Below are positions 9,762 through 20,510 of a stretch of DNA of 20,510 nucleotides, piece after piece. The stretch is from a virus. The notes below the pieces were generated by a model that saw only the letters and a program-made list of their open reading frames with translations, searched no databases and had not been told where the DNA came from. Both the position numbers and the translations under genes were made by a program. How positions within the stretch are numbered: position 1 is the first letter of the stretch; each line of letters opens with the position of its first letter. Location: positions 1-20,510 of the IMG/VR virus record IMGVR_UViG_3300027917_000197. The stretch is one strand, 5' to 3'.

Positions 9762-11258
9762 TCAGTATCCTGTCACCGCGGAACGCCCGAAGTCGGCAAA
9801 TTCCTCGTAGTCTTCTTGGTAGGCCCACTCGTCTTCTTCGTCCTTGCTGGGGGCGCGCACCATGTCTTGGAAAATCATGCCCAGCCATGCGAAGGCGTCC
9901 ACTTGGTCCTTGCGGGCAGAGCGCGGGAAGGCAGCGATTTCGTCCTCGAAATCGGGGTACCAGTCGGCGTCCTTGTCGAAGCGCACGCGTCCGGCGCGCA
10001 TCATGGTGGCGATGGCGGTGGCGCGCTGATCCTTGTCCCTGACGGGTCGTTCGGTGTCGAGGTTGATCCACGTACCGCGGCGATCCATTTCATCGAACAG
10101 GAAGCCGCCGAGCGCGCGGGCGATATTTTCTTCTTCCACCTTGAAGATGTCAGGGTTGTATCTGGCGTGGATGTTGAACATTTCCTCGACAATCTCCGGG
10201 CCGTCCCATTTGCCGCGCCGAACGTCCACTATGTGCAATATATTATCAGCATCCAGCCCGCCAACCACAAATACCGAGAATGCGCTCTGTTTTTGCTCAC
10301 CGATGGCGAGGTCGCCGCCGACGTAGTAGGCCATCTTGCGTTCATGGTCGCGCTCGCTCATGGCGATGAAATCCTGCCGCCGGAACTTGGCGGTGGCTTC
10401 ATCGAGCGGTTCGTTGAGGTATTCCTGCGCGTACACGTCGAGCATGCCCTGTTCGGCAAAGTCAGAACGGATTGCGCGCAAGGTTTCCGCGGGGAACTGT
10501 TCCGGCCAGAGGATTTGTGAGAAATCCGGGGTATGGGCGCGGTACAGCAGGCTGGTCCAGCCGCGGCGCACCTTGGAGTACACCTTGATGCCGTCGTCGT
10601 AGGTATCGATGGAGCTTTTCGGCGGCATCATGCGATTCAAGAGCGCATCGACGTGCAGGATGGTGCCAGCGCCGCGGATTTTGCCGCCGGAGCGCACAAT
10701 CGGGCGTACTGCGCCGTAGAACCAGCGGCGGAACTTGTCGCGGCGCACGTCGTTCAGCACGATTTCGTCGTCTTCCAAGTCGTCGAAGATGACGGTATCC
10801 GGGCGTTTGCGTTCCCATTTCATGCCACGCATGCGCTGCATGGCACCTTTGCAGATGACGCGGAACTTCTCGCCGTCCGTGAAGCGGCCAACGAGTTCGG
10901 TTTCGGAGTCTTTCAGCCAGCGGTCGAACTGGAAGGCGGAAATCAGGCCCTCGTTTTCCTGTAGCTCGATCTTGATGTCGTTGACGAAGCTGGCGGCCAG
11001 TTCTTCGTTGGCCCCCAGTATCAGGAGGTGGCGCGATTCCCGAAAAAGCAGTAATGCCAAGGCATACGCGAAGGTGATGGCGGTGGATTTGGCATGGCCT
11101 CGGGGCGCGGCAATGGCCACCTGCCGGTCATCGGAGCAGCAGATATCCCACCATTCGTAGTGACAATCCGGTACCGGGCGCGGTTCGTCATAACGGGGTG
11201 CCAGCAGTGACGTTGTCAGGCCAAGAATATCATCAGCGGTGAGCTTCTTGACGGTCAA
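9762..11258 (-). CDS. terL: terminase large subunit (packaging ATPase-nuclease)
   Basis: This 498-aa protein has both terminase domains. The ATPase has a Walker A-like loop APRGHAKST (51-59) and a Walker B strand TVIFDD (155-160) followed by acidic LEDDE. A Thr-containing coupling motif is likely near GAGTILHVD (196-204). The RNase H-like nuclease has candidate metal ligands D316 in GGDLAIG, E375-E377 in KVEEEN and D451/D454 in KDQVDAFAW. It packages DNA into the procapsid through the portal, which is the next gene. The start overlaps the upstream gene by 4 bases (ATGA). All key motifs appear intact. Confidence 0.95.
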   Translation of the reverse strand: MTVKKLTADDILGLTTSLLAPRYDEPRPVPDCHYEWWDICCSDDRQVAIAAPRGHAKSTAITFAYALALLLFRESRHLLILGANEELAASFVNDIKIELQENEGLISAFQFDRWLKDSETELVGRFTDGEKFRVICKGAMQRMRGMKWERKRPDTVIFDDLEDDEIVLNDVRRDKFRRWFYGAVRPIVRSGGKIRGAGTILHVDALLNRMMPPKSSIDTYDDGIKVYSKVRRGWTSLLYRAHTPDFSQILWPEQFPAETLRAIRSDFAEQGMLDVYAQEYLNEPLDEATAKFRRQDFIAMSERDHERKMAYYVGGDLAIGEQKQSAFSVFVVGGLDADNILHIVDVRRGKWDGPEIVEEMFNIHARYNPDIFKVEEENIARALGGFLFDEMDRRGTWINLDTERPVRDKDQRATAIATMMRAGRVRFDKDADWYPDFEDEIAAFPRSARKDQVDAFAWLGMIFQDMVRAPSKDEEDEWAYQEDYEEFADFGRSAVTGY

Positions 11259-11554
11259 TCGGTAAAGTCCCCGCGGCCCAGTGCATGGTCAATCTTGGAA
11301 TGATTGCGATTGCACAGATGCTCGATTTCTTCGACCTTGGCTTCCATCCTTGTCAGTCGCCGTTCCGATTCGAGTTTGTGTGAGCGGTAGTCGTTGGACA
11401 GCGACTCGATGGTATTCAGCACCCGGTCGGTCGATTTCTCGACGGTGGCTTTCCAGTGAATCAGGGCCTGAGCCCAGCTACGAAACGACAATCCGAACAT
11501 CCCTAGTACGAGGCCGACGATCATTTCCCCGGCATGCTCTGTGAGAAAATCCAT
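11255..11554 (-). CDS. small membrane-anchored coiled-coil protein
   Basis: This 99-aa protein has one hydrophobic segment near the N-terminus (GEMIVGLVLGMFGLSF, about 9-24) followed by a charged helix with heptad-like spacing (about 35-82). It looks like an N-terminal membrane anchor with a coiled-coil tail. A lysis role (holin-like or spanin-like) is possible, since small membrane genes often lie by the terminase, but nothing in the sequence proves it. Its start overlaps the stop of the gene before it (TGATG) and its end overlaps terminase, so it is translationally coupled. Confidence 0.65.
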   Translation of the reverse strand: MDFLTEHAGEMIVGLVLGMFGLSFRSWAQALIHWKATVEKSTDRVLNTIESLSNDYRSHKLESERRLTRMEAKVEEIEHLCNRNHSKIDHALGRGDFTD

Positions 11555-11868
11555 CAGGTGTCATCTTTCTGGCCCGTGACCTTTCGTCGTTCCGAGAAGT
11601 TGTTGGGCGGGACCGGCAACTCTGGATTCCAGCTACGGGAGAGATTCTTCGGCGTCATATAGTGTTCATGCAACACCTGATACAACGTCTTGATATCATC
11701 ACCCTCGACAATGAATCCCCTCGCTTCTCGCATTTCTTCTCGGTCGGCCTGTGGGTCCCCGGCGCGCATAAAGCACAGTCGCCGGGTCTTCCGGTTCCAC
11801 GTAAACGCGCCATTGAAATTCAGGGGGTAGGCCAGCGTATTCTTGTGAAAATGGCGCTTATCGGGCAT
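11554..11868 (-). CDS. hypothetical protein (104 aa)
   Basis: The frame is open to a TTG at 11892, but the ATG at 11868 (MPDKRHFHKNTLAY) is chosen because GGGGTAGGA lies just upstream. The protein is basic and hydrophilic, with AFTWNRKTRRLCFMRAGDPQ (about 21-40) and a helical region around DIKTLYQVLHEHY (about 57-69). It has no membrane segment or known catalytic motif. It lies in the packed group of small genes before the terminase. No family was recognised. Confidence 0.65.
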   Translation of the reverse strand: MPDKRHFHKNTLAYPLNFNGAFTWNRKTRRLCFMRAGDPQADREEMREARGFIVEGDDIKTLYQVLHEHYMTPKNLSRSWNPELPVPPNNFSERRKVTGQKDDT

Positions 11869-11873
11869 CAATC

Positions 11874-12098
11874 CTACCCCTGAAAGCTGCAATGAACAGG
11901 AACACCGTTAATCACCACAGCCTTGCGATGAACCTTGGCTATCCGCTCCAAACGCTCGGGTGTAGACCACATCGCAAACATCTTAGGATCGGCGGCATAG
12001 CGAACAATATGATCGTCTTCATACAGCGTGCAGGCGTTCCGCGTAAATTCACGCACCAGAAAGTCATCCCAATCAAATAACCGCTGCTGCTCACCCAC
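11874..12098 (-). CDS. hypothetical protein with GTG start (74 aa)
   Basis: The open frame extends upstream to 12206, but that extension only translates the neighbouring small gene in the wrong frame and yields an Arg-rich artefact. The likely start is GTG at 12098 (GEQQRLFDWDDFL follows), with an AGGG site about 11 bases upstream. The product is acidic at the front and basic at the end, with MFAMWSTPERLERIAKVH near the middle. No motif was recognised. The GTG start is a judgement. Confidence 0.5.
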   Translation of the reverse strand: MGEQQRLFDWDDFLVREFTRNACTLYEDDHIVRYAADPKMFAMWSTPERLERIAKVHRKAVVINGVPVHCSFQG

Positions 12099-12111
12099 CG
12101 GAGTATATTCC

Positions 12112-12243
12112 CTACTTCCTTTTCTTTTTGCCTTTCTTCGCCAGATACGCCTTGTAGGCCGCCTCAGCCTTCGCCTTGGACGTGTACATGCACTTCCCCG
12201 AGCCAATGGCCCACTTCCCGTTGCTGCACTTCCTGACCGGCAT
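12112..12243 (-). CDS. small basic phage protein (43 aa)
   Basis: This ATG frame gives MPVRKCSNGKWAIGSGKCMY, then TSKAKAEAAYKAYLAKKGKKKRK. The pattern (KCSNGKWxIGxGxCMYxSK..AExAYxAYLAKK) is one I recognise from tiny proteins near the terminase of many podoviruses. Two Cys residues (C6, C18) may pair or bind metal, and the C-terminus is strongly basic, so nucleic-acid binding is possible. Its ATG overlaps the stop of the membrane peptide gene in TGATG. The family's function is unknown. Confidence 0.7.
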   Translation of the reverse strand: MPVRKCSNGKWAIGSGKCMYTSKAKAEAAYKAYLAKKGKKKRK

Positions 12244-12377
12244 CAGAGTAACGGCATCCAGATATCAACCCCGAATATGGCCGCCACAATAGCAATAATC
12301 ATCCACGGCAGGAAGACCACTATCGCAAGCGCCGAAAACAACGGCAACACGTACCAAATCAACTCAGAAAACTTCAT
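12243..12377 (-). CDS. small hydrophobic membrane protein (44 aa)
   Basis: This 44-codon ATG frame encodes a protein that is nearly all hydrophobic from residue 6 to 36 (IWYVLPLFSALAIVVFLPW, then MIIAIVAAIFGVDIW), enough for one long or two short membrane spans around a Pro24-Trp25 break. The start overlaps the previous stop (ATGA) and the stop overlaps the next start (TGATG), which strongly supports it being a real gene. A holin-like role is conceivable but not shown. Confidence 0.65.
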   Translation of the reverse strand: MKFSELIWYVLPLFSALAIVVFLPWMIIAIVAAIFGVDIWMPLL

Positions 12378-12649
12378 TTGCCACTCCTGTACGCCCGCAT
12401 GTAATCCCGCTGATAAGCGTTATACCGCTCCCGGTTCTTCGCCCGCCATTGCCGCTTCCTGACCGTCTCCGGGTTCTCAACAGGACTGAGGCTCTTTGGC
12501 TCTACAAACTCAGGCTCCGTCATACGACGAGGCTCAATCCGTACACCAGAGGTATCAAGGTTAACCCTTGATCCAACCGGCCTCGGAACACTTAAGTTCG
12601 GACACTGACCCCCAAAATGCGCCGTACTTCCACATCGATTGCAATACAT
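12374..12649 (-). CDS. CCHC zinc-knuckle protein
   Basis: The first residues of this 91-aa protein, MYCNRCGSTAHFGGQC, fit C-x2-C-x4-H-x4-C exactly (C3, C6, H11, C16), the zinc knuckle that binds single-stranded nucleic acid in retroviral nucleocapsids and many RNA-binding proteins. A flexible Pro/Glu-rich middle follows (about 25-60). The basic helical tail RKRQWRAKNRERYNAYQRDY (about 64-83) is a motif seen in small phage proteins. It is the first gene behind the candidate promoter at 12681-12709. Nucleic-acid binding is likely, and a regulatory or packaging role is possible. Confidence 0.75.
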   Translation of the reverse strand: MYCNRCGSTAHFGGQCPNLSVPRPVGSRVNLDTSGVRIEPRRMTEPEFVEPKSLSPVENPETVRKRQWRAKNRERYNAYQRDYMRAYRSGK

Positions 12650-12651
12650 AC

Positions 12652-12694
12652 GTTAGTCCCTAGGTTTCATCGCCCTAGTGAGTATGGGACTAAC
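12652..12694 (-). promoter_or_regulatory. operator-like inverted repeat GTTAGTCCC/GGGACTAAC
   Basis: A perfect 9-bp inverted repeat has arms at 12652-12660 and 12686-12694 with 25 bases between; a smaller TAGG/CCTA pair is nested inside. One arm overlaps the spacer and -10 of the candidate promoter, and the other lies just before the zinc-knuckle start codon. Two-fold symmetry around a promoter suits a dimeric repressor. A nested RNA hairpin is the alternative. Confidence 0.5.
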
Positions 12695-12709
12695 AGCAGA
12701 GAAGGTCAA
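12681..12709 (-). promoter_or_regulatory. candidate sigma70-like promoter for the packaging operon
   Basis: On the minus strand TTGACC (12709-12704) and CATACT (12686-12681) are separated by 17 bases, a 5/6 match to the -35 and 4/6 to the -10 consensus. It would start transcripts about 25 bases before the zinc-knuckle gene and drive the terminase-to-tail operon. It is predicted from sequence only. Confidence 0.4.
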
Positions 12710-12805
12710 GACGGAGCGGGTGGTGGGATATATGAATATATGCGCTGCGAGCTTTTGCCCCCCGCCCGGTCCTTCCTATGGGACCCGCTCCTGCCAATCC
12801 ATTGT

Positions 12806-12965
12806 GACGCCCTGAGACGCCCTGAGACGCGCGCTAGGCCTAGTCTGGGGCTGGGTATGGGTTGAGTTGAGTTCGTGGATTGGGGGCGCTGAGATTTGGT
12901 CTCAGTGGGCGTTGCAATCCCCCATCCCGCACTGAAACTGTCCCTGCTCTGAGATGTACTGAAAC
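12806..12965. repeat. CTGAGA repeat cluster in the gap behind the small terminase
   Basis: The stretch 12650-12971 has no gene. Besides the promoter/operator it holds a 10-bp tandem repeat GACGCCCTGA (12806-12825). CTGAGA occurs at 12812, 12822, 12889 and 12949, with an inverted copy at 12900-12905 that makes a perfect 6-bp hairpin with the 12889 copy. ACTGAAAC is repeated at 12931 and 12958. Repeats beside a small terminase gene can be packaging (pac) or terminase-binding sites. This is a hypothesis only. Confidence 0.45.
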
Positions 12966-12971
12966 GAGTTG

Positions 12972-13484
12972 TTACCGGGTTACCGTGTTATCTGGGTCGT
13001 GTTCGATAGCGGTCTGGTCCTTGGTCTGTTTAGCGCGGTATGAGCTAGCGAACTGTCGGAAGCTGTCCTGTAAGTCGGCAAGCTGGTAGTTCGCGTTCTG
13101 CTGCGCCTGTATTCCTGCTGCCTTCTCGGACCTTGTCGCCAGCACGTTGACGATAGTCGATAGGTCACGGGCCTTGATCGGGGCTCGATACTGATACGGC
13201 TGTCCGTCCTTGTCGGTCCTGACGTGAATGTCCCCGCGATGCAGTCGGTCTTCAAGTTCATCCAGTGCCGTGCCCAGTGCCCGGTTTGCTTTGGCTATCG
13301 TGGATTGAACCTGCTGGGATTGCATTGTGGATAGCATGTCCTTGAACCATGCCTGTCGAATCCACCCTTTCAGTGTCTGGATACCCACACCGGTCCTGTC
13401 GGCCACGGTATGCGGGTCACCATACAGCGCGTATTCTGCGCAAATCCGGCGCTTTTCCCGATCAGAGTAGTTGGTGATGCCCAT
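12972..13484 (-). CDS. putative terminase small subunit (HTH protein)
   Basis: In this 170-aa protein, residues about 6-50 (SDREKRRICAEYALYGDPHT, then VADRTGVGIQTLKGWIRQAW) form a helix-turn-helix of the kind used by small terminases to bind pac DNA. A helical middle (about 55-90) and a segment with KARDLSTIVNVLATRSEKA (about 103-121) follow, typical for oligomerising small terminase proteins. The C-terminus is hydrophilic. It is first in the leftward operon, upstream of terL, though separated from it by small genes. A transcription factor is an alternative. The start codon has only a weak ribosome site. Confidence 0.65.
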   Translation of the reverse strand: MGITNYSDREKRRICAEYALYGDPHTVADRTGVGIQTLKGWIRQAWFKDMLSTMQSQQVQSTIAKANRALGTALDELEDRLHRGDIHVRTDKDGQPYQYRAPIKARDLSTIVNVLATRSEKAAGIQAQQNANYQLADLQDSFRQFASSYRAKQTKDQTAIEHDPDNTVTR

Positions 13485-13554
13485 TATCTGCTTTTGTAAC
13501 TCACTGAATGTAAAGCGCTTCTCAAATTAATCCTAATTCACATTGCGTTGGGTA

Positions 13555-13582
13555 TTGCATTCCGTGTTGCAACCCCTATCAT
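13555..13582 (+). promoter_or_regulatory. candidate plus-strand promoter
   Basis: TTGCAT (13555-13560) and TATCAT (13577-13582) are 16 bases apart, matching the sigma70 consensus 4/6 and 5/6. Transcription would begin near 13588, exactly where the hairpin-rich stretch starts, and read into the eight-gene operon. It is predicted from sequence only. Confidence 0.4.
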
Positions 13583-13587
13583 GTTCC

Positions 13588-13975
13588 CTGCCACGCCGTG
13601 AGGCGTCGCGCCCCGAGAGGGGCAGGGTGGTCCAGATAGACCGGCAACGGTCGCCACGTACTGGCAGAGTGAGACCTCGCCACCCACGGTACCCAATCCG
13701 TCGCACGGCTCCGACGAGCGTTGCTGACCTGCGGTGAACACCGCAGCGAGACGCCCCAGCCCGTCACGCGTCATTCCGAATCATACGATTCTCTCCTGCC
13801 CCGGCCTTGTGCCGGGGATGCCGCGGGGACAGCAAAGCGCGCTGTTCCTGCTCCTGCCAGTGGGCTTGCCCACAAAGGAAACTGACGACTGAGACGTGAC
13901 CGAATCGGGGTCACATAATCCTCAGAATCCGTTGCTGATTTTAGCACGGATTGCCGCTGTGGCGAGCGGCGAAAC
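13588..13975 (+). ncRNA. candidate structured RNA or long structured leader
   Basis: No convincing gene lies in 13485-14041. From 13590 the plus strand holds a dense chain of perfect hairpins: ACGCC/GGCGT with GTGA loop (13593-13606), GCCCC/GGGGC with GAGA loop (13610-13623), GACCG/CGGTC with GCAA loop (13639-13652), CGTCG/CGACG (13699-13716), CTGCGGT/ACCGCAG (13729-13746), CCCCGGC/GCCGGGG (13799-13817), ACAGC/GCTGT (13829-13845), GTGGG/CCCAC with CTTG loop (13860-13873) and GTGACC/GGTCAC (13896-13914). GGGTGG (13625-13630) and CCACCC (13680-13685) could close a multibranch junction. GNRA loops appear only on the plus strand, which fixes the sense. It matches no RNA family I know (not RNase P, tmRNA or a group I intron). 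Confidence 0.5.
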
Positions 13976-13993
13976 CAAACCGGCGTGACCCTC

Positions 13994-14041
13994 GCGGGGC
14001 TTCGGCCCCGCTGGTCTTTGGCAACCCTAGGAGAATCCATC
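13994..14041 (+). promoter_or_regulatory. gene-start module copy 1
   Basis: GCGGGGC/GCCCCGC with a TTCG loop (13994-14011), then the 14-mer variant GGTCTTTGGCAACC (14013-14026) and AGGAGA, 29 bases from 14-mer start to ATG. It is the first of eight such modules and is not preceded by a gene on this strand. Confidence 0.85.
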
Positions 14042-14179
14042 ATGGCAATCGCTGAACTCGTTTTCATCGCGCTGTTCGCAGTCACCCTGCTAGTCCCCGC
14101 TTTCCGCCGGGACCGGAGCAATATCCGTGGATACCCCACAATCGAAAACGGCAAGATGCAGTTCAACACCCCGGAATAA
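14042..14179 (+). CDS. small membrane-anchored protein (45 aa)
   Basis: The frame is open from 13985, but translation should start at the ATG at 14042 behind the AGGAGAATCC site. The product starts MAIAELVFIALFAVTLLVPA, one membrane helix (about 2-20), followed by a basic FRRDRSNIRGYP and a short polar tail. It is most likely an inner-membrane peptide with a cytoplasmic C-terminus, or a weak signal anchor. The stop codon lies in the loop of the next module's hairpin. Function is unknown; a superinfection or lysis-timing role is possible for a phage micro-protein but not shown. Confidence 0.7.
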   Translation: MAIAELVFIALFAVTLLVPAFRRDRSNIRGYPTIENGKMQFNTPE

Positions 14180-14214
14180 CCGGGGGTCTTGGTAAACCCA
14201 CAGGAGAACCGATT
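14169..14214 (+). promoter_or_regulatory. gene-start module copy 2
   Basis: CCCCGG/CCGGGG (14169-14174, 14180-14185) whose loop AATAA holds the TAA stop of the previous gene; then GGTCTTGGTAAACC (14185-14198) and AGGAGAA. The spacing from 14-mer start to ATG is 30 bases. Confidence 0.85.
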
Positions 14215-14433
14215 ATGACTAAAACCCGCAATTTTTCGACTACATCAGTAAGCGTAAACACTTGCCGCGGCTGTCTCGTTTTAACTTTTCGGACGCGACG
14301 CGCTGCTCAAGAATTTACCCTCAAATTATACGACCGAGACGATGTTCTCGACTGGGAAGTGCATGATTCTATTAGCGTTTATCGTAATGCTGATTGCGGC
14401 ATCAAAGAGTTAGATTTTTTCACCGGGGCGTAA
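14215..14433 (+). CDS. hypothetical protein (72 aa)
   Basis: This is a small protein with strands and charged turns, MTKTRNFSTTSVSVNTCRGC at the start and DREDDVLDWEVH-like acidic residues in the middle (YDRDDVLDWEVHDSISVY). Two Cys residues are close together (C17, C20: CRGC), with one more near the end (C61). It has no membrane segment. The DNA is visibly more AT-rich than its neighbours (runs such as tttttc and attata), which may indicate recent acquisition. No family was recognised. It is expressed from the module in front of it and ends in the loop of the next module. Confidence 0.7.
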   Translation: MTKTRNFSTTSVSVNTCRGCLVLTFRTRRAAQEFTLKLYDRDDVLDWEVHDSISVYRNADCGIKELDFFTGA

Positions 14434-14469
14434 AGCCCCCGGTTTTGGCAAACCCACAGGAGAATCACC
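14423..14469 (+). promoter_or_regulatory. gene-start module copy 3
   Basis: GGGGC/GCCCC (14425-14429, 14435-14439) with loop GTAAA containing the upstream TAA stop. GGTTTTGGCAAACC (14441-14454) follows; here the 14-mer itself is a perfect 5-bp hairpin with TGGC loop. The distance to ATG is 29 bases. Confidence 0.85.
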
Positions 14470-15321
14470 ATGAATAACATCATGTTAGCATCATTTAGCT
14501 GCAAGCTCTGGCCCGTCCAGCGGCAAGACCGGCGCATCACTAGCGCCATTGCCACGAAGGTCGGCCTCGGCGGAAAGTCGGGCGTTTTCAAGAAGTTCCG
14601 AATCAACACGCATCGTGACGAATGGTTGCGGATCACCCGTAACCGCGACGCGTTTCGGGCCTTTCACTACGCTATGACGATCCCGTACAAGCACGGCGCA
14701 TCGCTCCTGAACCCGCTCGCTTTTGACGAGTATCAGGATCGCTTCAATGCCGCGCAAATCGAGCATGACGATGCTGTCAACGCGTTCTTCTTAAACCTCG
14801 ACAGCATACTAGCCGAAGCGCGGCTTGCGCTGACAACCGATGACGGTACCTGCTATTTCCGCGAATCAGACTATGCGGACCTGACGCCCGACGCGTTCAC
14901 GTTCGATATGCTGGTCGAACCGTTAGTCCACGATGCGACGTTCGATGCCTTCTCTGACCTAATCGGCGCTGAGAAGGCGCAGGAACTCGCTGACAAGCTC
15001 GCGGCGGAAAACGATAGGGCATTCAGGGCCTCAGTCGATAGCGTCTCACAGCGCGTCTCAGACGCTCTGATGCGCGCTGCTGACCGGCTCCACAATGCCG
15101 AGCGCTGGAACCCGTCCGCGGTCGAAGCGTTGCAGGAACTCACGGACCTGCTGCCGGTGTTGAACATCACGAATGACCCGAAAATTGAGCAGACTCGCAA
15201 GCAAATCGCGAGCCTGTTCCGGGCCTATTCGGTCGATTCGTTCAACGACAAGGCAACGCGGCAGTCCTGCGCACACAAGGTTGACCAAATCTTGTCCAAA
15301 TTTGGTCGGTCGGGGAGTTAA
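14470..15321 (+). CDS. DUF3150-like protein next to MoxR ATPase
   Basis: This 283-aa, mostly helical protein has no membrane segment. Residues about 10-35 include CKLWPVQRQDRRITSAIATK, like the N-terminus of DUF3150 proteins, and the middle (IEHDDAVNAFFLNLDSI, about 97-113) fits the helical part of that family. A Ser/Ala/Glu-rich helix with EKAQELADKLAAENDRAF (about 168-185) and a C-terminal basic tail follow. DUF3150 proteins are often found next to a MoxR-type ATPase and a VWA protein, and that is exactly the case here. The family link is a recognition by pattern and context, not a proven match. Its molecular role is unknown; it may be a substrate or adaptor of the ATPase pair. Confidence 0.6.
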   Translation: MNNIMLASFSCKLWPVQRQDRRITSAIATKVGLGGKSGVFKKFRINTHRDEWLRITRNRDAFRAFHYAMTIPYKHGASLLNPLAFDEYQDRFNAAQIEHDDAVNAFFLNLDSILAEARLALTTDDGTCYFRESDYADLTPDAFTFDMLVEPLVHDATFDAFSDLIGAEKAQELADKLAAENDRAFRASVDSVSQRVSDALMRAADRLHNAERWNPSAVEALQELTDLLPVLNITNDPKIEQTRKQIASLFRAYSVDSFNDKATRQSCAHKVDQILSKFGRSGS

Positions 15322-15356
15322 TCCCCGGTCTTGGCAAACCCTCAGGAGAATCCATT
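15311..15356 (+). promoter_or_regulatory. gene-start module copy 4
   Basis: CGGGGA/TCCCCG (15311-15316, 15322-15327) whose loop GTTAA holds the upstream TAA stop; GGTCTTGGCAAACC at 15327-15340; AGGAGAATCC. The distance to ATG is 30 bases. Confidence 0.88.
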
Positions 15357-16349
15357 ATGAGCAACAAAGTATCCATCGCACAGGCCGCCCGGATCATGTC
15401 CACGGCCTACAAAAACCGCAAGCGCAACGGCAAGCCTTTCAAGGTCCTGCTGCTGGGTCCACCGGGCGTCGCAAAAACCGCGGCAGTCCGTCAACTTGGC
15501 CAGTCGGTCGGCATGCCGGTCGTGGAGTGGCTGCTGTCGAACAAGGCACCCGAGCATATAACGGGTTACCCGTACCTCGACAACGGCGTGATGAAGTACG
15601 CCCGGCCTGTTTTCTGGCCGACTGAGCAATGCGTTCTACTGGTCGATGAACTCGGACAGTGTCCGATTCAAGTCCAGAACGTCGCCATGCCGGTTGTCTA
15701 CGAAGGCACCAACGGCGTGCATACGCTGCCGGAAGGCACAATCACAATCGCTTGCGCGAACCGCGCGGAAGACCGGGCTGGCTCAACGGTACTGACAACG
15801 GCGCTCCGGCGTCGCTTCGATATCATCGTTGAGGTCGAACCCACGAAGGCCGAGTGGCTGGACTGGGCGAAAGCCAATAACGTCAACCCGTTCGTCGTAG
15901 CGTGGGTCGAATCGAACCTGAATACAGTCCTAGACTTCGATCCGAAGTCGAAGGAAGGTTACCTCGCACCCGCTACGCTGGAGCAAGCCGGGGATCAAGT
16001 CGATATGTACAACAACGACTGCAACAACCCCGATTTGGCTGTCACCCTGCACGGTACCCTCGGCGGCGACTACGCGTCGAAGCTGCTGGCGTTCATGGAA
16101 ACATACGACGCCCTGCCTAGCTACGACGATATCCGCACGTCACCCGAAACCGCCGCGGTATGCCCCGAGCATATCTCAGCGGTCGCGTCGATGCTGGCTG
16201 GCAACGCCCGGTACGTTCACGGTGCCGCGCTGGTCCGCTACATGATGCGCTACACGCCCGAAGCTCAGGCGCGGCTGGTCACGGCCCTGTCCGAAGCAGT
16301 ACGGCAACACCCCGAGGTCTCGGCGCTCGCTGAGACGCTGGGCCTCTAA
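15357..16349 (+). CDS. MoxR-family AAA+ ATPase
   Basis: This 330-aa protein has Walker A GPPGVAKT (34-41), Walker B VLLVDE (93-98), sensor 1 in ACANR (132-136) and a candidate arginine finger LRRRFD (150-155). MoxR-type AAA+ proteins form hexameric rings that remodel partner proteins, often together with a VWA-domain protein bound to metal, which is the next gene. Annotation pipelines may label such phage proteins CobS (cobaltochelatase), but no cobalamin genes are here. N4-like phages also carry a MoxR/VWA pair among their conserved genes. The gene starts at an AGGAGAATCC site 30 bases behind the 14-mer. All motifs look intact, so an active ATPase is expected. Confidence 0.88.
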   Translation: MSNKVSIAQAARIMSTAYKNRKRNGKPFKVLLLGPPGVAKTAAVRQLGQSVGMPVVEWLLSNKAPEHITGYPYLDNGVMKYARPVFWPTEQCVLLVDELGQCPIQVQNVAMPVVYEGTNGVHTLPEGTITIACANRAEDRAGSTVLTTALRRRFDIIVEVEPTKAEWLDWAKANNVNPFVVAWVESNLNTVLDFDPKSKEGYLAPATLEQAGDQVDMYNNDCNNPDLAVTLHGTLGGDYASKLLAFMETYDALPSYDDIRTSPETAAVCPEHISAVASMLAGNARYVHGAALVRYMMRYTPEAQARLVTALSEAVRQHPEVSALAETLGL

Positions 16350-16358
16350 GGCTCAACC

Positions 16359-16408
16359 GCGGGACCTTGTGTCCCGCCGGTCTTGGCAAACCTACAGGAG
16401 AATCCATT
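16359..16408 (+). promoter_or_regulatory. gene-start module copy 5
   Basis: GCGGGAC/GTCCCGC with loop CTTGT (16359-16377); here the stop codon is 9 bases upstream of the stem. GGTCTTGGCAAACC at 16379-16392; AGGAGAATCC. The distance to ATG is 30 bases. Confidence 0.88.
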
Positions 16409-17863
16409 ATGAACTACGCGAAATTTCAACACCCGCTGATTGAAACCGCGGTGCGCCATATCTGGCATCCGTGGATCAAGCGCATCATCAAGCGCTTGCC
16501 GATTGTTGACGGGTCGGCAGTCACCAAAACCATGGCGACTGACGGGGCGCGGATTTTTGTGAATCCGCACTACATCACGACTCTCAGCATCGGTGAATTG
16601 GCCGCTGTTCTCGTTCACGAAGCGCTGCACGTTATCATGCGGCATCCGCTTCGTCGCAATGGCCGCGACCCGCGCAAGTGGAACGTGGCATGCGATCATG
16701 CAATCAACTGGATCATCGACAAGCTCAACTACACCCTGCCCAAAAACGTGCTGGAAGGCCGTGAGGGGTCGGCAGAGCAAATCTACGGTCAGGTTGAGCG
16801 CGAGTACGAGCAAGAGCAGCAGTCGCGTCAGCAGAATAACGGCGAATCGTCGAAGTCTGAACAGTCAGATGACAATGCACAATCGAATGGCAGCAACGAA
16901 TCCAAGGATTCCGAGCAGCAGGACGGTGGTGATTCAGAGTCTGGCGAGCAGGGCGAGCAGGGCGAAAGTGGCGAATCCGGTCAATCCGGCGAGGCTGCCG
17001 AGTCTGGCGAGTCTAGCTCAGAATCGACTGCTGGTAACAGCGGCGATCCGGGCAACGCTTACGACGATGACGGCGTGGACCTGTTCGACTATCCGCTGGA
17101 AGACGGCGAAACAATGGCCGACGCCGAGCGGCGAATCGACAGGCTTTGCGCCGGGGCTTCCATGGATATGGAACACGACGACGAAGAACCTTCGCACTAC
17201 GAGAAGGAACTGCTGATTGACCGCGCCGAGACGGAACTCGACTGGCCGAAGGAACTGGAAGAATACATCCAGAACCTCGGCGGTGCCGAATACAGCATGA
17301 ATCCACCGCACATCGGATTCATGCAGCAGGGCATCATCTGCAATCAGTTGAACCCGTCCGGTATCGGCAACGTAGTGCTAGCAGTTGACGTGTCTGGCTC
17401 CATCGACAAGCCGAAGCTCAAGCTGGTCATCACGCACCTGATGCTGTTCATCGAGAACATCGACTACGAATCGCTGCGAATCATCACCTGCGATACCTCG
17501 GTGCGGTTTGACGAGACGTACTTCCGCGGTGTACCGGTAGACTGGAACGACTTGGTTCGTCGGGGCATCACGGGCGGCGGCACTAAGGTGAAACCCGTTT
17601 TCGACAAGCTCAACGACGAAGGCGTGACGCCTGACCTGCTGATTTACTTCACGGACCTGCTGATGCCGCGCAAAGGCATCAGCATGCGCGAAAGAGCGAT
17701 TCAGGAAGACGATCCGGGCTACCCGGTAGTCTGGCTGGTCGATCAGGAAGGCGCTTGTGACGGTACCGGTGGTCTCAACGACCCGGAAGAATCCACGGAC
17801 AATATGTGGAAAACGTACGGCTGGGAACCGGAGTACGGCATCGCAATCGACGCTTGCAAGTAA
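16409..17863 (+). CDS. metallopeptidase-like/VWA protein, MoxR partner
   Basis: This 484-aa protein starts at the ATG at 16409 (frame open from 16367). The N-terminal domain has HEALHVIMRH (70-79), an HExxH zinc-peptidase-type motif, then CDHAINWIID (96-104), as in DUF2201-type putative metallopeptidases. A long acidic, Ser/Gln/Gly-rich linker follows (about 128-225, with repeated ESGE and GEQGE units). The C-terminal VWA-like domain has MIDAS DVSGS (327-331), TGGGTKV (388-394) and FTD (414-416). Such proteins pair with MoxR ATPases, here the previous gene. Phage versions are often called CobT-like; the HExxH domain argues against a plain cobaltochelatase. Peptidase activity is possible, and metal-dependent binding by the MIDAS is likely. 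Confidence 0.88.
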   Translation: MNYAKFQHPLIETAVRHIWHPWIKRIIKRLPIVDGSAVTKTMATDGARIFVNPHYITTLSIGELAAVLVHEALHVIMRHPLRRNGRDPRKWNVACDHAINWIIDKLNYTLPKNVLEGREGSAEQIYGQVEREYEQEQQSRQQNNGESSKSEQSDDNAQSNGSNESKDSEQQDGGDSESGEQGEQGESGESGQSGEAAESGESSSESTAGNSGDPGNAYDDDGVDLFDYPLEDGETMADAERRIDRLCAGASMDMEHDDEEPSHYEKELLIDRAETELDWPKELEEYIQNLGGAEYSMNPPHIGFMQQGIICNQLNPSGIGNVVLAVDVSGSIDKPKLKLVITHLMLFIENIDYESLRIITCDTSVRFDETYFRGVPVDWNDLVRRGITGGGTKVKPVFDKLNDEGVTPDLLIYFTDLLMPRKGISMRERAIQEDDPGYPVVWLVDQEGACDGTGGLNDPEESTDNMWKTYGWEPEYGIAIDACK

Positions 17864-17869
17864 CACCCG

Positions 17870-17917
17870 CGGGGGCGCAAGCCCCCCGGTCTTGGCAAAC
17901 CTCAAAGGAGAATCACT
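17870..17917 (+). promoter_or_regulatory. gene-start module copy 6
   Basis: GGGGGC/GCCCCC with a GCAA tetraloop (17871-17886), 7 bases after the previous stop; GGTCTTGGCAAACC at 17888-17901; AAAGGAGAATC. The distance to ATG is 30 bases. Confidence 0.88.
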
Positions 17918-18217
17918 ATGAAAAACACGTTAGTAATTAGAACCGACAGCGACGATGACTTCCGCGCTATGCACAAGATGTTTTCGGATATCCTGCGCGC
18001 GGTCTCGTCCGCTGGTCAGACTGACGGACCCATTACGATGTTCGGCGTGGCTGGCGATGAACCCGGCACGGATCAAATCCGCGCGGAGATTGACAGCATC
18101 GAACAGCGGGTCCTGATTCGCGCGGTACCCAACGGCAACGCAAAGCACGTTCATCCCGATACGGATGAAGACGAGGTGCTGCGCGAACTGCCTGAGTTTG
18201 TGCCGATGATGCACTGA
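17918..18217 (+). CDS. hypothetical acidic protein (99 aa)
   Basis: This acidic protein starts MKNTLVIRTDSDDDFRAMHK and has two likely helices (about 12-30, 55-67) around short strands. The C-terminus is Asp/Glu-rich (HPDTDEDEVLRELPEF). It has no Cys, membrane segment or catalytic motif. It follows the VWA gene and shares its transcription unit, so it may belong to the same system, but the sequence gives no direct evidence. Acidic small phage proteins can mimic DNA or bind host proteins; that is speculation here. Confidence 0.75.
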   Translation: MKNTLVIRTDSDDDFRAMHKMFSDILRAVSSAGQTDGPITMFGVAGDEPGTDQIRAEIDSIEQRVLIRAVPNGNAKHVHPDTDEDEVLRELPEFVPMMH

Positions 18218-18222
18218 CCGGT

Positions 18223-18267
18223 CGGGGCTTCGGCCCCGGTCTTGGCAACCCTAAAGGAGAATTGATT
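18223..18267 (+). promoter_or_regulatory. gene-start module copy 7
   Basis: CGGGGC/GCCCCG with a TTCG tetraloop (18223-18238), 5 bases after the previous stop; a one-base-shorter motif GGTCTTGGCAACC (18238-18250); AAAGGAGAATTG. The distance to ATG is 30 bases. Confidence 0.87.
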
Positions 18268-18474
18268 ATGAAAACTTACCAAGTATTTTGTGCGAATTGC
18301 TGGCAGGAATACCGGCAACGATGCAGCACGGAACCAAAGATATGCGGCGCTTGCGGCGCTGACTATATCGCAACCCGCGAAGATCGCTGCACTGTGCGCT
18401 CCGAAATTACCGGCGAGCGCTGCATCAAGCGACGCGATCACTTAAACGCGCACCAGTGGCGCAATCGGGGTTAA
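18268..18474 (+). CDS. small double zinc-site protein (68 aa)
   Basis: The start is ATG at 18268; a TTG at 18262 is in frame but less likely. Eight likely ligands are in order: C8-x2-C11 and C26-x2-C29 form a zinc ribbon, and C41-x10-C52-x5-H58-x3-H62 forms a second CCHH site. The rest is basic. Zinc-ribbon micro-proteins in phages usually bind nucleic acid or host RNA polymerase or ribosome parts. No known family match was recognised. The stop lies in the loop of the next module's hairpin. Confidence 0.75.
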   Translation: MKTYQVFCANCWQEYRQRCSTEPKICGACGADYIATREDRCTVRSEITGERCIKRRDHLNAHQWRNRG

Positions 18475-18511
18475 TACCCCGGTCTTGGCAAACCCTAAAG
18501 GAGAATCCATT
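18466..18511 (+). promoter_or_regulatory. gene-start module copy 8
   Basis: CGGGGT/ACCCCG (18466-18471, 18476-18481) with loop TAAT containing the upstream TAA stop; GGTCTTGGCAAACC at 18481-18494; AAAGGAGAATCC. The distance to ATG is 31 bases. Confidence 0.88.
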
Positions 18512-18862
18512 ATGAACAAACCCGTTACTCGATTATTCACCCGGTCTGCGCTCGAAAATTGGTTCGGCGCTACCGGCGACAAGGCACCCGACTGGGTTGG
18601 GGGCCGTGAAACAATGGAACTGTGCCGCGATGCGCTTCGGCAACTGTGGGATTTCCCAAAGGACACCAAACGCATCTGGCTCACAGCCAGCACGGTGCCG
18701 ACACCCGGCGAGTCATATCGTCTGAAAAGGGCCGGGGTTGGCTGGCTGGACAACGGCCCGAGCTACGAAAGCGGACGGTTTTCGTTTGACAGTTCAGCCC
18801 AGCGGTACCTCGGCAGGCGATTCGACACGAAGTACGTCTATATCACAATGGAATATGAGTAA
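18512..18862 (+). CDS. hypothetical protein, last gene of plus operon (116 aa)
   Basis: The start is the ATG at 18512 behind the AAAGGAGAATCC site. The protein is basic, with a helical N-terminal half containing WVGGRETMELCRDALRQLWD (about 28-47) and a strand-rich C-terminal half (RIWLTASTVPTPGESYRL, then KYVYITMEYE at the end). It has no membrane segment. It is followed at once by a strong terminator, so it closes the operon. The family was not recognised. Confidence 0.75.
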   Translation: MNKPVTRLFTRSALENWFGATGDKAPDWVGGRETMELCRDALRQLWDFPKDTKRIWLTASTVPTPGESYRLKRAGVGWLDNGPSYESGRFSFDSSAQRYLGRRFDTKYVYITMEYE

Positions 18863-18870
18863 GACCTTGA

Positions 18871-18905
18871 GCCCTGCTCCCCGTCCGGGGGGCGGGGCTT
18901 TTTTT
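18871..18905 (+). terminator. Rho-independent terminator of the plus operon
   Basis: A 12-bp GC-rich stem with two G-U pairs (left arm 18871-18882, right arm 18887-18898, TCCG-type loop) is followed by seven T (18899-18905), 8 bases after the last stop codon. It ends the eight-gene transcript. Confidence 0.85.
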
Positions 18906-18972
18906 ATGTCCACGCAAGATTTCTTATGCCAGAAGGGATGCGGCGAGCGCTGCGGAGTTGCGGCTCGCGCTT

Positions 18973-19011
18973 AAAAAAAGACCCCGCGGCGAGCGTCCTT
19001 ACCGCGGGGTC
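18973..19011 (-). terminator. Rho-independent terminator for leftward transcript
   Basis: A perfect 10-bp stem (GACCCCGCGG at 18980-18989, CCGCGGGGTC at 19002-19011) has seven A on its left (18973-18979), which read as a T-tract on the minus strand. It lies 53 bases behind the end of the leftward gene at 19064 and blocks it from running into the plus operon. Its right arm also serves as the stem of the ninth copy of the start module. Confidence 0.8.
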
Positions 19012-19048
19012 GGCTTTGGCAAGCCCAGCAAGAAAAGGAGAATCCTTG
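19012..19048 (+). repeat. orphan ninth copy of the gene-start module
   Basis: GGCTTTGGCAAGCC (19012-19025) is a perfect 5-bp hairpin with TGGC loop; AAGGAGAATCC follows (19034-19045), but no ATG: TTG CTG stands where ATT ATG is expected, and only sequence antisense to the leftward gene follows. About 7 extra bases lie between the 14-mer and the ribosome site. It is probably a remnant left after loss or exchange of a gene. Confidence 0.7.
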
Positions 19049-19063
19049 CTGCCTGTAAATATA

Positions 19064-20143
19064 TCACAAATCGTCGGCTGTCACGCCACTTGGATAATCC
19101 TCATACACGTAGCGATCCGTTTGTTCGGGCCGTTTCGATCCTTCCTGATCGTCACCCACACCCCTCACAAAATCCTGAATATTCCTCCTCTCCCACGATT
19201 TTTCTCGGACCATTGCCCCGGTCCACTCCTCAACTAACCCATTACGCCTTACCCTAAACCCGCTCCTGTCACAGATTTCGTATTGCGACGGATACTCGTC
19301 GGCATTCGGATTCAGGATGCTGTAGTCGCCATTGAAGGTCGGCGGCGGTAGTGACAGTTCAGGGCGGCCAAAAACGAAGTGTAACTTACCGTCCAGATAG
19401 CGATGCGCGACTTCTGGTATGCGGACATTCGCAACCGGGACACCAGCAATGATCGTGTGATTGGCATACAAATGCTCAATCAGCCCACCGGTATTGATTA
19501 GCCAGCCAATACCTGCTGCTGGCGAATCGTACCCTGTCAGCGACAAGCTGGCTGGTATTGGCTGAACATTGACGTTGTTGTTCGCAATGACATTGTTTCC
19601 TGTCATCGCGAGATGGGCGATGTCGCCTACGCCTACGCTCGTTCCATTATTAGTAAACGTGCTGGGAGCAAACGCCGTCATCGTCCCAGACGGCGTACCC
19701 GGAAGAAGATTCCACGTTACTGTGATGGTGGATTCAGGTGACAGCGTAACCCAAATGTCACCAAGCACATAACCAGACCCGTCTATATCAAGCGACAGCG
19801 GCGAGAGCGAGAGCCCAGCCAGCGTAACCGGGATGTTCTGTCCGTAAACAGCATCAGGATCAAATGCGTTGAGAGTAAGCGCCCCAGTGGGAGCGAACAC
19901 CGCTGGGCCAGAGGTTACCGCCGTGACAAATTTGGCGAGCGTGAGTGTGCCGTCATCTGTGACGTACACGTCACCGATTTCACGACTTGACGTTGCCCAA
20001 TAATTGGTCGCCCAGTAATTAGTCGCCCAATAACTGGGTAGCCAATAACCACCTACCTCGGTTGGCTCACCCCAATACTCGTCAGCCCAGTAGTTACTGG
20101 CGAAGTATTTGCTGGCAAACCATCCTGCGCCGCCCGCTGCCAT
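19064..20143 (-). CDS. putative tail/fibre protein with YWAT repeats
   Basis: The N-terminus of this 359-aa protein has aromatic repeats (FASKYFASNYWADEYW, then YWATNYWATNYWATS, about 9-52), a pattern of five-residue A-[TS]-[NK]-Y-[WF] units seen in phage proteins of unknown role. The middle (about 55-260) is Thr/Ser/Gly-rich and beta-structured. The C-terminus has YEICDRSGFRVRRNGLVEEW (about 287-306), then ERRNIQDFVRGVGDDQ (about 319-334), close to the CDRTGF...WEPRHPQDFVR motif of small phage proteins, here fused to a long N-terminal part. It lies 4 bases behind the upstream gene and ends before the minus-strand terminator. Confidence 0.75.
   Translation of the reverse strand: MAAGGAGWFASKYFASNYWADEYWGEPTEVGGYWLPSYWATNYWATNYWATSSREIGDVYVTDDGTLTLAKFVTAVTSGPAVFAPTGALTLNAFDPDAVYGQNIPVTLAGLSLSPLSLDIDGSGYVLGDIWVTLSPESTITVTWNLLPGTPSGTMTAFAPSTFTNNGTSVGVGDIAHLAMTGNNVIANNNVNVQPIPASLSLTGYDSPAAGIGWLINTGGLIEHLYANHTIIAGVPVANVRIPEVAHRYLDGKLHFVFGRPELSLPPPTFNGDYSILNPNADEYPSQYEICDRSGFRVRRNGLVEEWTGAMVREKSWERRNIQDFVRGVGDDQEGSKRPEQTDRYVYEDYPSGVTADDL
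19995..20039 (-). repeat. 15-bp tandem repeat inside the YWAT protein gene
   Basis: Three near-identical 15-bp units (19995-20009, 20010-20024, 20025-20039), each starting GCCCA on the plus strand, encode repeated W-A-T-N-Y units; a degenerate fourth follows. Length variation between related phages is likely here. Confidence 0.75.
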
Positions 20144-20147
20144 CGTC

Positions 20148-20510
20148 TTACGACGACGGGCTAAGCGTCATCGCCGTCCTGTTGTTGCTGGCATCGAGCG
20201 TAGAGCTTACTCGGTCTTCGTTATCGCCCGGATCGCGGAATACCGTGCCATTGGTATTCGTCTCTCCGGCCAAAACCGCAAGTATGATGCTCATAATCTG
20301 TTGTGCGGTGTAGGAACCGTTCGTCTCGCAAACCTTGGCCCAGATTTCCGTGACATACGTGCTGTCCAGTGCATCGGACGTAAACGCATTAGTGGCAATC
20401 TTGGCTGCGGTGATCGCGTCCGAGTCCAGTGACGATGCGGTTATCGCGTTGGCAACAGTATCGTTCACGGTAACCAGCGGCGTGGCATCGTTCAGGTCGA
20501 AGTCCAGTAA
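20148..20510 (-). CDS. phage structural / fibre-like protein, C-terminal part
   Basis: The frame is open to the right edge, so the start is outside the window; a GTG at 20468 is only an internal codon. The visible 120 residues have AITASSLDSDAITAAKIATN, a repeat type common in tail fibre and related proteins. A C-terminal domain follows with YTAQQIMSIILAVLAGETNT, then FRDPGDNEDRVSSTLDASNN and RTAMTLS, matching a motif I know from phage virion proteins (FRD..D.KDRVTATVDA.GNRTAV). It ends 4 bases before the YWAT protein gene. A fibre or upper-baseplate role is likely. Confidence 0.75.
   Translation of the reverse strand, partial: LLDFDLNDATPLVTVNDTVANAITASSLDSDAITAAKIATNAFTSDALDSTYVTEIWAKVCETNGSYTAQQIMSIILAVLAGETNTNGTVFRDPGDNEDRVSSTLDASNNRTAMTLSPSS

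Follow-up and report, generated by a model that had tools for sequence, protein, structure and literature searches.

A geneless copy of a repeated start module as a candidate antisense element at the border of two convergent phage operons

Bacterial 3'-end small RNAs end in the terminator of the very mRNA to which they belong. They are presented, in the sections of PMC9438474 dealing with them, as regulatory RNAs located at the 3' end of an mRNA. Among phages, the relevant sections of PMC12197685 describe the C4 RNA of P1/P7 and the sar RNA of P22 as RNAs that pair with a target mRNA and block its translation; C4 pairs in the region of the ribosome-binding site, and the complementary stretches probably lie in loops. 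Repeated elements at gene starts are known from the cluster K mycobacteriophages, which contain 11-19 start-associated repeats (SAS). For the related ESAS repeats, the pertinent part of Pope et al. 2011 (PMC3203893) reports little support for the formation of RNA hairpins, and putative promoters were seen in ESAS of Adephagia according to the corresponding part of PMC11373665. Passages of reports from 2024 and 2025 (PMC11373665, PMC12699233) describe the role of SAS in cluster K as unknown or as still requiring verification, and no stated function for a reverse SAS copy was found in the portions of the cluster K literature that were covered.

The window, by which the whole stretch of 20,510 nt analysed here is meant, is the record of a 20.5-kb virus, whose minus strand carries structural genes (terminase, head-closure protein, portal and capsid, with the names portal and capsid resting on our own reading and on matches among relatives). 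Convergent with this structural cluster is a plus-strand operon of eight genes (14042-18862), which includes a MoxR-like ATPase (PF00004/PF07728; phrog_1297) and a DUF2201/VWA-like gene (PF13203/PF09967; phrog_1314). This gene pair (15357-17863) is also present in the contigs L002 and L003, and the L002 homologue of p3 (14470-15321) is placed between the MoxR and VWA homologues. The pair presumably also occurs in N4-like phages, and it stands here beside head genes of what we take to be a P22-like kind. The structural gene adjoining the junction (19064..20143, minus strand) encodes a protein of 359 aa with a conserved C-terminus and repeated aromatic NYW-type motifs, which are also seen in the protein of L004:6717-8066; matches to this NYW-repeat protein were found in 16 of the 65 loci compared, mostly over the C-terminal part. 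The GC content, being 0.571 in the structural part, 0.57 in the plus operon and 0.54 at the end of the window, is nearly constant and hence gives no sign of recent foreign origin. As a metagenomic record the window may be a chimeric assembly; gene order on both sides of the junction agrees with that in two related contigs, L004 and L005.

Every gene of the plus operon is preceded by one start module composed of a GC-rich hairpin, GGTCTTGGCAAACCC or a sequence near it, AGGAGAA and in most cases TCCATTATG. Modules 1 to 8 are located on the plus strand at 13994..14041 (before p1), 14169..14214 (p2), 14422..14469 (p3), 15308..15356 (MoxR-like ATPase), 16359..16411 (DUF2201/VWA-like gene), 17871..17917 (p6), 18220..18267 (p7) and 18464..18511 (p8). 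AGGAGAA is found in all eight (at 14029, 14202, 14458, 15344, 16396, 17906, 18255 and 18499), and the GC-rich hairpin ends 13-19 nt upstream of it in each case. These hairpins differ in sequence and pair in 8/8 modules, with stem scores of 17-21, each of which is reached by 1.0-4.4% of random 48-mers, and in the control all 18 minus-strand gene starts score 14 or less, none of them (0/18) reaching the weakest module hairpin. Within 14169-18511, four of the seven modules located behind another operon gene have the stop codon of that gene in the hairpin loop, so that a ribosome finishing that gene would melt the hairpin immediately ahead of the start that follows. Five of the nine module copies also match the sigma-70 consensus (TTGGCA, a spacer of 16-17 nt and a CATTAT-like sequence; 15331, 16383, 18242, 18485 and 19016), and promoter-like sites number 12 in 10000-20510 as compared to 5.3 in shuffles. 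A reading of the module as a sigma-70 promoter (TTGGCA-16/17-CATTAT) was rejected, since the -10 element would overlap the start codon and four of the eight modules (14018, 14189, 14445, 17892) are unflagged.

For the junction itself, the initial annotation had claimed a strong terminator at the end of each operon and a ninth, geneless module copy sharing its stem with the minus-strand terminator, and all three features were recovered. The plus terminator, proposed at 18871-18905, corresponds to an intrinsic terminator at 18869..18906 on the plus strand, located downstream of the p8 stop codon (18860-18862) and comprising a 14-bp stem with a T-tract, which folds at -29.7 kcal/mol (z = -4.45). 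The minus terminator, proposed at 18973-19011, has a 10-bp stem (18980-18989/19002-19011) behind which the minus strand carries a T7 tract (18973..18979), and its omission by the terminator scanner is presumably due to a loop of 12 nt exceeding the scanner limit of 8. The ninth copy extends over 18980-19051, and the hairpin at 18980..19011, designated HP3, serves on the minus strand as the terminator hairpin of the transcript and on the plus strand as the hairpin of this orphan module. The orphan copy carries TTGGCAAGCC and AAAAGGAGAATCC, with the Shine-Dalgarno block and the TTGGCAA core intact. No ATG or GTG is present within 19037-19300, and the earliest start is a TTG at 19046, which opens 63 codons antisense to the structural gene. 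Relative to the other modules, 6-7 extra bases precede the Shine-Dalgarno sequence, and these bases enclose it in a perfect inverted repeat of 7 bp, which lengthens to 9 bp on the minus strand when G-U is counted. Between the two terminators lies a 66-nt fragment (18907..18972, plus strand), possibly the remnant of a duplicated p7 tail, which has in common with p7 the 13-nt in-frame word CGGCGAGCGCTGC (18941-18953 and, in p7, 18411-18423). The stretch 18931-19052 is diverged and collinear with the p7 tail plus the p8 module, the word having P = 0.0015 against random window segments, uncorrected.

In the 5' to 3' direction of the minus strand, 12 nt separate the stop codon of the structural gene (19064-19066) from HP1, after which HP1 (19026..19051), HP2 (19012..19025) and HP3 follow one another without spacer in the 3'UTR of this gene. 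HP1, with the sequence CAGCAAGGA-UUCUCCUU-UUCUUGCUG, has a 9-bp stem (7 Watson-Crick pairs flanking the core) and an 8-nt loop that is the complement of AAGGAGAA, and HP2 (GGCUU-GCCA-AAGCC) is the antisense of the TTGGCAA core, from whose module consensus it has three differences that jointly give a perfect 5-bp stem. The predicted fold of the 91-nt minus-strand RNA reaches -46.5 kcal/mol (z = -6.93), with a single structure accounting for 82% of the ensemble. When HP3 is left out, HP1 plus HP2 give z = -2.91 on the minus strand (0/200 shuffles) versus z = -0.65 on the plus strand (47/200), and the plus strand of the same stretch with HP3 included is also structured (z = -3.93). The strand difference in HP1 arises because a G-U pair is possible in the minus RNA only, extending the stem from 7 to 9 bp. 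In calculations made after the feature had been seen, and uncorrected for this, 156 of 9828 triple changes (1.6%) yield an HP2-like perfect stem, 0.12% of random flanks enclose the fixed Shine-Dalgarno core in a perfect helix of 7 bp or more, and 0.19% reach a minus-strand HP1 energy as low (P = 0.0019). Among the 12 TCTCCT sites on both strands of the window, an enclosing helix of at least 7 is found only at the orphan copy (9), the remaining 11 having 2-6. The promoter scan lists no sigma-70-like site close upstream on the minus strand, and the RNA would thus have to ride on the structural mRNA. No Rfam match at gathering score was obtained either in the window or in the genome record of mycobacteriophage Anaya (L106).

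The HP1 loop UUCUCCUU is complementary to the AGGAGAA of all eight plus modules. In a comparison of 31 gene starts by duplex energy with the HP1 loop region, which excludes the cost of opening either partner, the eight plus starts occupy ranks 1-8, with values of -12.6 to -19.4 for the plus-operon starts versus -10.7 or weaker for 23/23 minus-strand starts. This ranking follows from the sequence shared by the plus starts, and what it adds is that the structural genes are mostly spared. With the whole of HP1 plus HP2, seven plus starts stand on top and the minus-strand g18 (-30.1) outranks p2 (-29.0). Approximately 1.9% of random 50-mers bind the HP1 loop as well as the weakest plus target does, and accessibility is moderate, the eight target modules having a Shine-Dalgarno core that is only 25-68% unpaired on average. 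Since complementarity to the modules is automatic for an inverted module copy, the added stem, the strand bias and the position alone count as independent, and each had been noticed before it was tested.

The reading preferred here, tentatively and at slightly under an even chance, is that the orphan copy serves, within the 3'UTR of the structural-gene transcript, as a non-coding antisense element able to block all eight plus genes. Its anatomy, predicted fold and complementarity are established directly, and its transcription and action are inferred. Transcription of the structural genes would yield an RNA whose 3' end carries HP1-HP3, and this 3' end could act while still within the mRNA, or as a small RNA that is processed from it or has a start of its own. 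The HP1 loop would contact the AGGAGAA Shine-Dalgarno cores, by which initiation would be blocked at the eight plus genes together. Structural transcripts would in this manner turn off the non-structural set, a translational switch for which the division into early and late transcripts is assumed from gene content. The element probably originated as a diverged copy of the p7/p8 junction, which would also have supplied the terminator hairpin.

The junction had furthermore been interpreted as a module border at which a cassette with its own start module was deleted or replaced by the structural gene cluster. The nearest relatives found, L004 and L005, have large terminases with 55% and 52% identity, and in both of them the open frames behind the homologue of the 19064-20143 gene keep to its strand as far as the small terminase, the plus-operon proteins being without any match in L004 or L005. 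The border as such is therefore upheld, the plus operon being absent at this place in 2/2 nearest relatives, whereas replacement of a cassette by the structural cluster is contradicted, since the cluster is continuous in both and it is thus the plus operon that interrupts the structural cluster. As for a deleted cassette, such a relic would imply that a cassette was deleted or truncated and that its start module stayed behind at the meeting point of plus operon and structural cluster, and this is regarded as an unlikely account of the orphan copy. It draws support from the diverged collinear match of 18931-19052 to the p7 tail and p8 module with its exact 13-nt in-frame word, and from the continuity of the structural cluster in L004 and L005. 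However, with the p7-like word upstream of the orphan copy, nothing gene-like was recognised downstream: the module is followed by neither an ATG nor a recognisable gene remnant, and just 12 nt lie between the HP1 arm and the neighbouring stop codon. Moreover, the 6-7 extra bases create a perfect inverted repeat, the fold is stronger on the minus strand, and the search revealed no relative with an extra cassette. Deletion is weakly supported as an origin by the 13-nt p7 word and the collinear p7/p8 junction, and it accounts poorly for the present copy with its intact blocks, new stem and minus-strand fold; the loss of a gene may describe the origin only.

Another possibility, to which we assign a rather low probability, is that the region functions only as a border terminator, for which a module copy was recruited on account of its GC-rich hairpin, with the antisense match as a by-product and with HP1 and HP2 merely capping the mRNA 3' end. 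Convergent operons call for terminators, HP3 with its T7 tract looks good as a minus-strand terminator, and the ten bases before the hairpin hold seven A in the orphan copy as compared to 1-4 in the other eight modules; yet a terminator has no need for an intact Shine-Dalgarno block of 12-13 nt or for a new framing stem with an 8-nt loop. The presence of AAGGAG a few bases before TTG 19046, with the frame open for 63 codons, might also be taken to indicate a real start module for an antisense small protein. This is highly improbable in view of its position downstream of the plus terminator, the TTG start versus ATG in the eight modules, a frame running antisense to the conserved C-terminus of the structural gene, and a Shine-Dalgarno sequence located in a hairpin loop of the predicted fold.

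Pattern searches of viral contigs and genome contigs together with flanking-gene searches revealed no relative carrying the repeated module. The strict module pattern gave 0 viral-contig stretches and a looser one gave 30, which is about the chance level by our estimate, made without a shuffle control. Among these 30, one stretch is module-like (L095 at 1509, within L095:1470-1848 of an unrelated-looking viral contig): 2 nt separate a 5-bp hairpin from the TTGGCAAACC behind it, after which come AAAGGAGAA and the ATG of a frame open for 104 codons. The 39-kb record holds one copy of TTGGCAA-N(2-10)-AGGAG, and the site, which could be a real relative of one module, is treated as isolated. In several others of the 30 the motif precedes a start codon, with no hairpin of this kind. 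The module pattern had two matches in genome contigs, both rejected as modules, the one in L104 being antisense to a protease-like gene and the one in L105 being a lone copy that lacks a start codon and is preceded by an 11-bp hairpin. When viral contigs were searched for the antisense arrangement, 59 stretches were obtained, and among the 86 loci from the two viral pattern searches none has two or more modules; a helix of 7 or 8 near the motif in 4/86 loci (three being the same sequence) was provisionally judged to be chance. The records of L004 and L005 contain no GGCAAACC-N(1-8)-AGGAG. Searches with the flanking genes 19064-20143 and p8 confirmed no relatives in viral contigs, and those with MoxR gave none and with VWA two, which lack repeated modules. 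In a k-mer test of start regions (L002-L007, L009 and L010, with L072 and L073), no repeat exceeded the shuffled level by more than one count; applied to Anaya as a positive control, this test found another repeat (GACAACTGAATA) and missed SAS, its sensitivity being incomplete. An array of 12-nt direct repeats is present in the related phage contig L007 (1193-1432) beside a 300-nt direct repeat with copies 94% identical. No DNA match to the window was found in the phage collection.

A parallel is offered by cluster K. Bases 12000-60835 of Anaya contain 16 forward SAS matches and one reverse match with 1 mismatch, and because shuffled Anaya gives a mean of 0.96 SAS matches in all at the mismatch level used, the reverse match alone could be due to chance. 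It is located in the unannotated 385 nt that separate genes 96 and 97 and constitutes, when read on the same strand as these neighbours, the loop (CCUCCUAUCC) of a long hairpin. The element around it was found in 177 phage records, all of Mycobacterium phages, and spans approximately 300 nt close to the right end of the genome, including a conserved TTTTAGACT block (L106:47690-48067 in Anaya, L107:399-830 in Adephagia, and others). With at most 2 mismatches, the reverse SAS is present in 14 of 25 cluster K loci, each time at the loop of the same hairpin, and missing from 11, which is not a frequency, as the 25 loci were chosen by us from 60 of the 177 records, the last 8 mostly near Anaya. Across 10 sequences, 157/158 cells keep the hairpin pairing and 2 pairs have both partners changed, a count omitting 4 of the 14 anti-SAS loci (L108, L184, L185 and L186) that are the same or near-same as rows kept. 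The covariation score for these 10 related sequences is reached by 8/500 shuffles, which is only suggestive, and on the first 6 sequences it was not above shuffles (79/500 reach it). The Anaya hairpin region alone has z = -1.63, with 12/200 shuffles folding as well. An open frame passes through the reverse copy in Anaya and a hypothetical gene is annotated over the element in some records; the element may be coding. By its predicted structure, a second phage group with repeated start elements thus appears to show a reverse copy in an RNA loop.

It is conceivable, though doubtful, that phages in which many non-structural genes share one ribosome-binding element also possess this element in reverse within a hairpin loop, as a master antisense switch that evolved independently in the window phage and in cluster K. 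If true, such independent evolution would account for the reverse SAS copies for which no explanation was given in 2011, and it would provide start-associated repeats with a directly testable function and explain why a start signal is kept without a gene. One small RNA would then regulate a whole phage operon via a shared start element, as the RNA counterpart of a one-operator regulon. The literature covered here yielded no account of an RNA directed against a start element that several genes share, and Dedrick et al. 2019 (ZoeJ), lying outside the search, may contain one.

In comparison to the known systems, the likeness to SAS/ESAS lies in a repeat restricted to non-structural gene starts, in one orientation and with a rare geneless exception: in the window it is present at 8/8 plus-operon starts and in 1 geneless copy, with none listed at structural genes. 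This is an analogy and not homology. SAS/ESAS is a 13-bp GGGATAGGAGCCC repeat before start codons and the repeat of the window (GGTCTTGGCAAACCC...AGGAGAATCCATTATG) is unrelated in sequence; in addition, RNA hairpins of ESAS are little supported in the part of PMC3203893 concerned, while the module hairpins pair in 8/8 cases here. With the 3'-end small RNAs of bacteria the locus shares the position of HP1-HP3 behind a stop codon and an end in HP3 plus T7, provided that it is transcribed as we infer, and it differs from those covered by the source cited above in being phage-encoded and in having targets that would be set by a repeated start element. As in C4 and sar, the complement of the target ribosome-binding region is located in a loop (HP1 UUCUCCUU, in the predicted fold). 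However, whereas the target of C4 and sar is an antirepressor mRNA, as far as the sections describing them extend, here a single loop would match eight genes via their shared module, from the 3'UTR of a structural gene.
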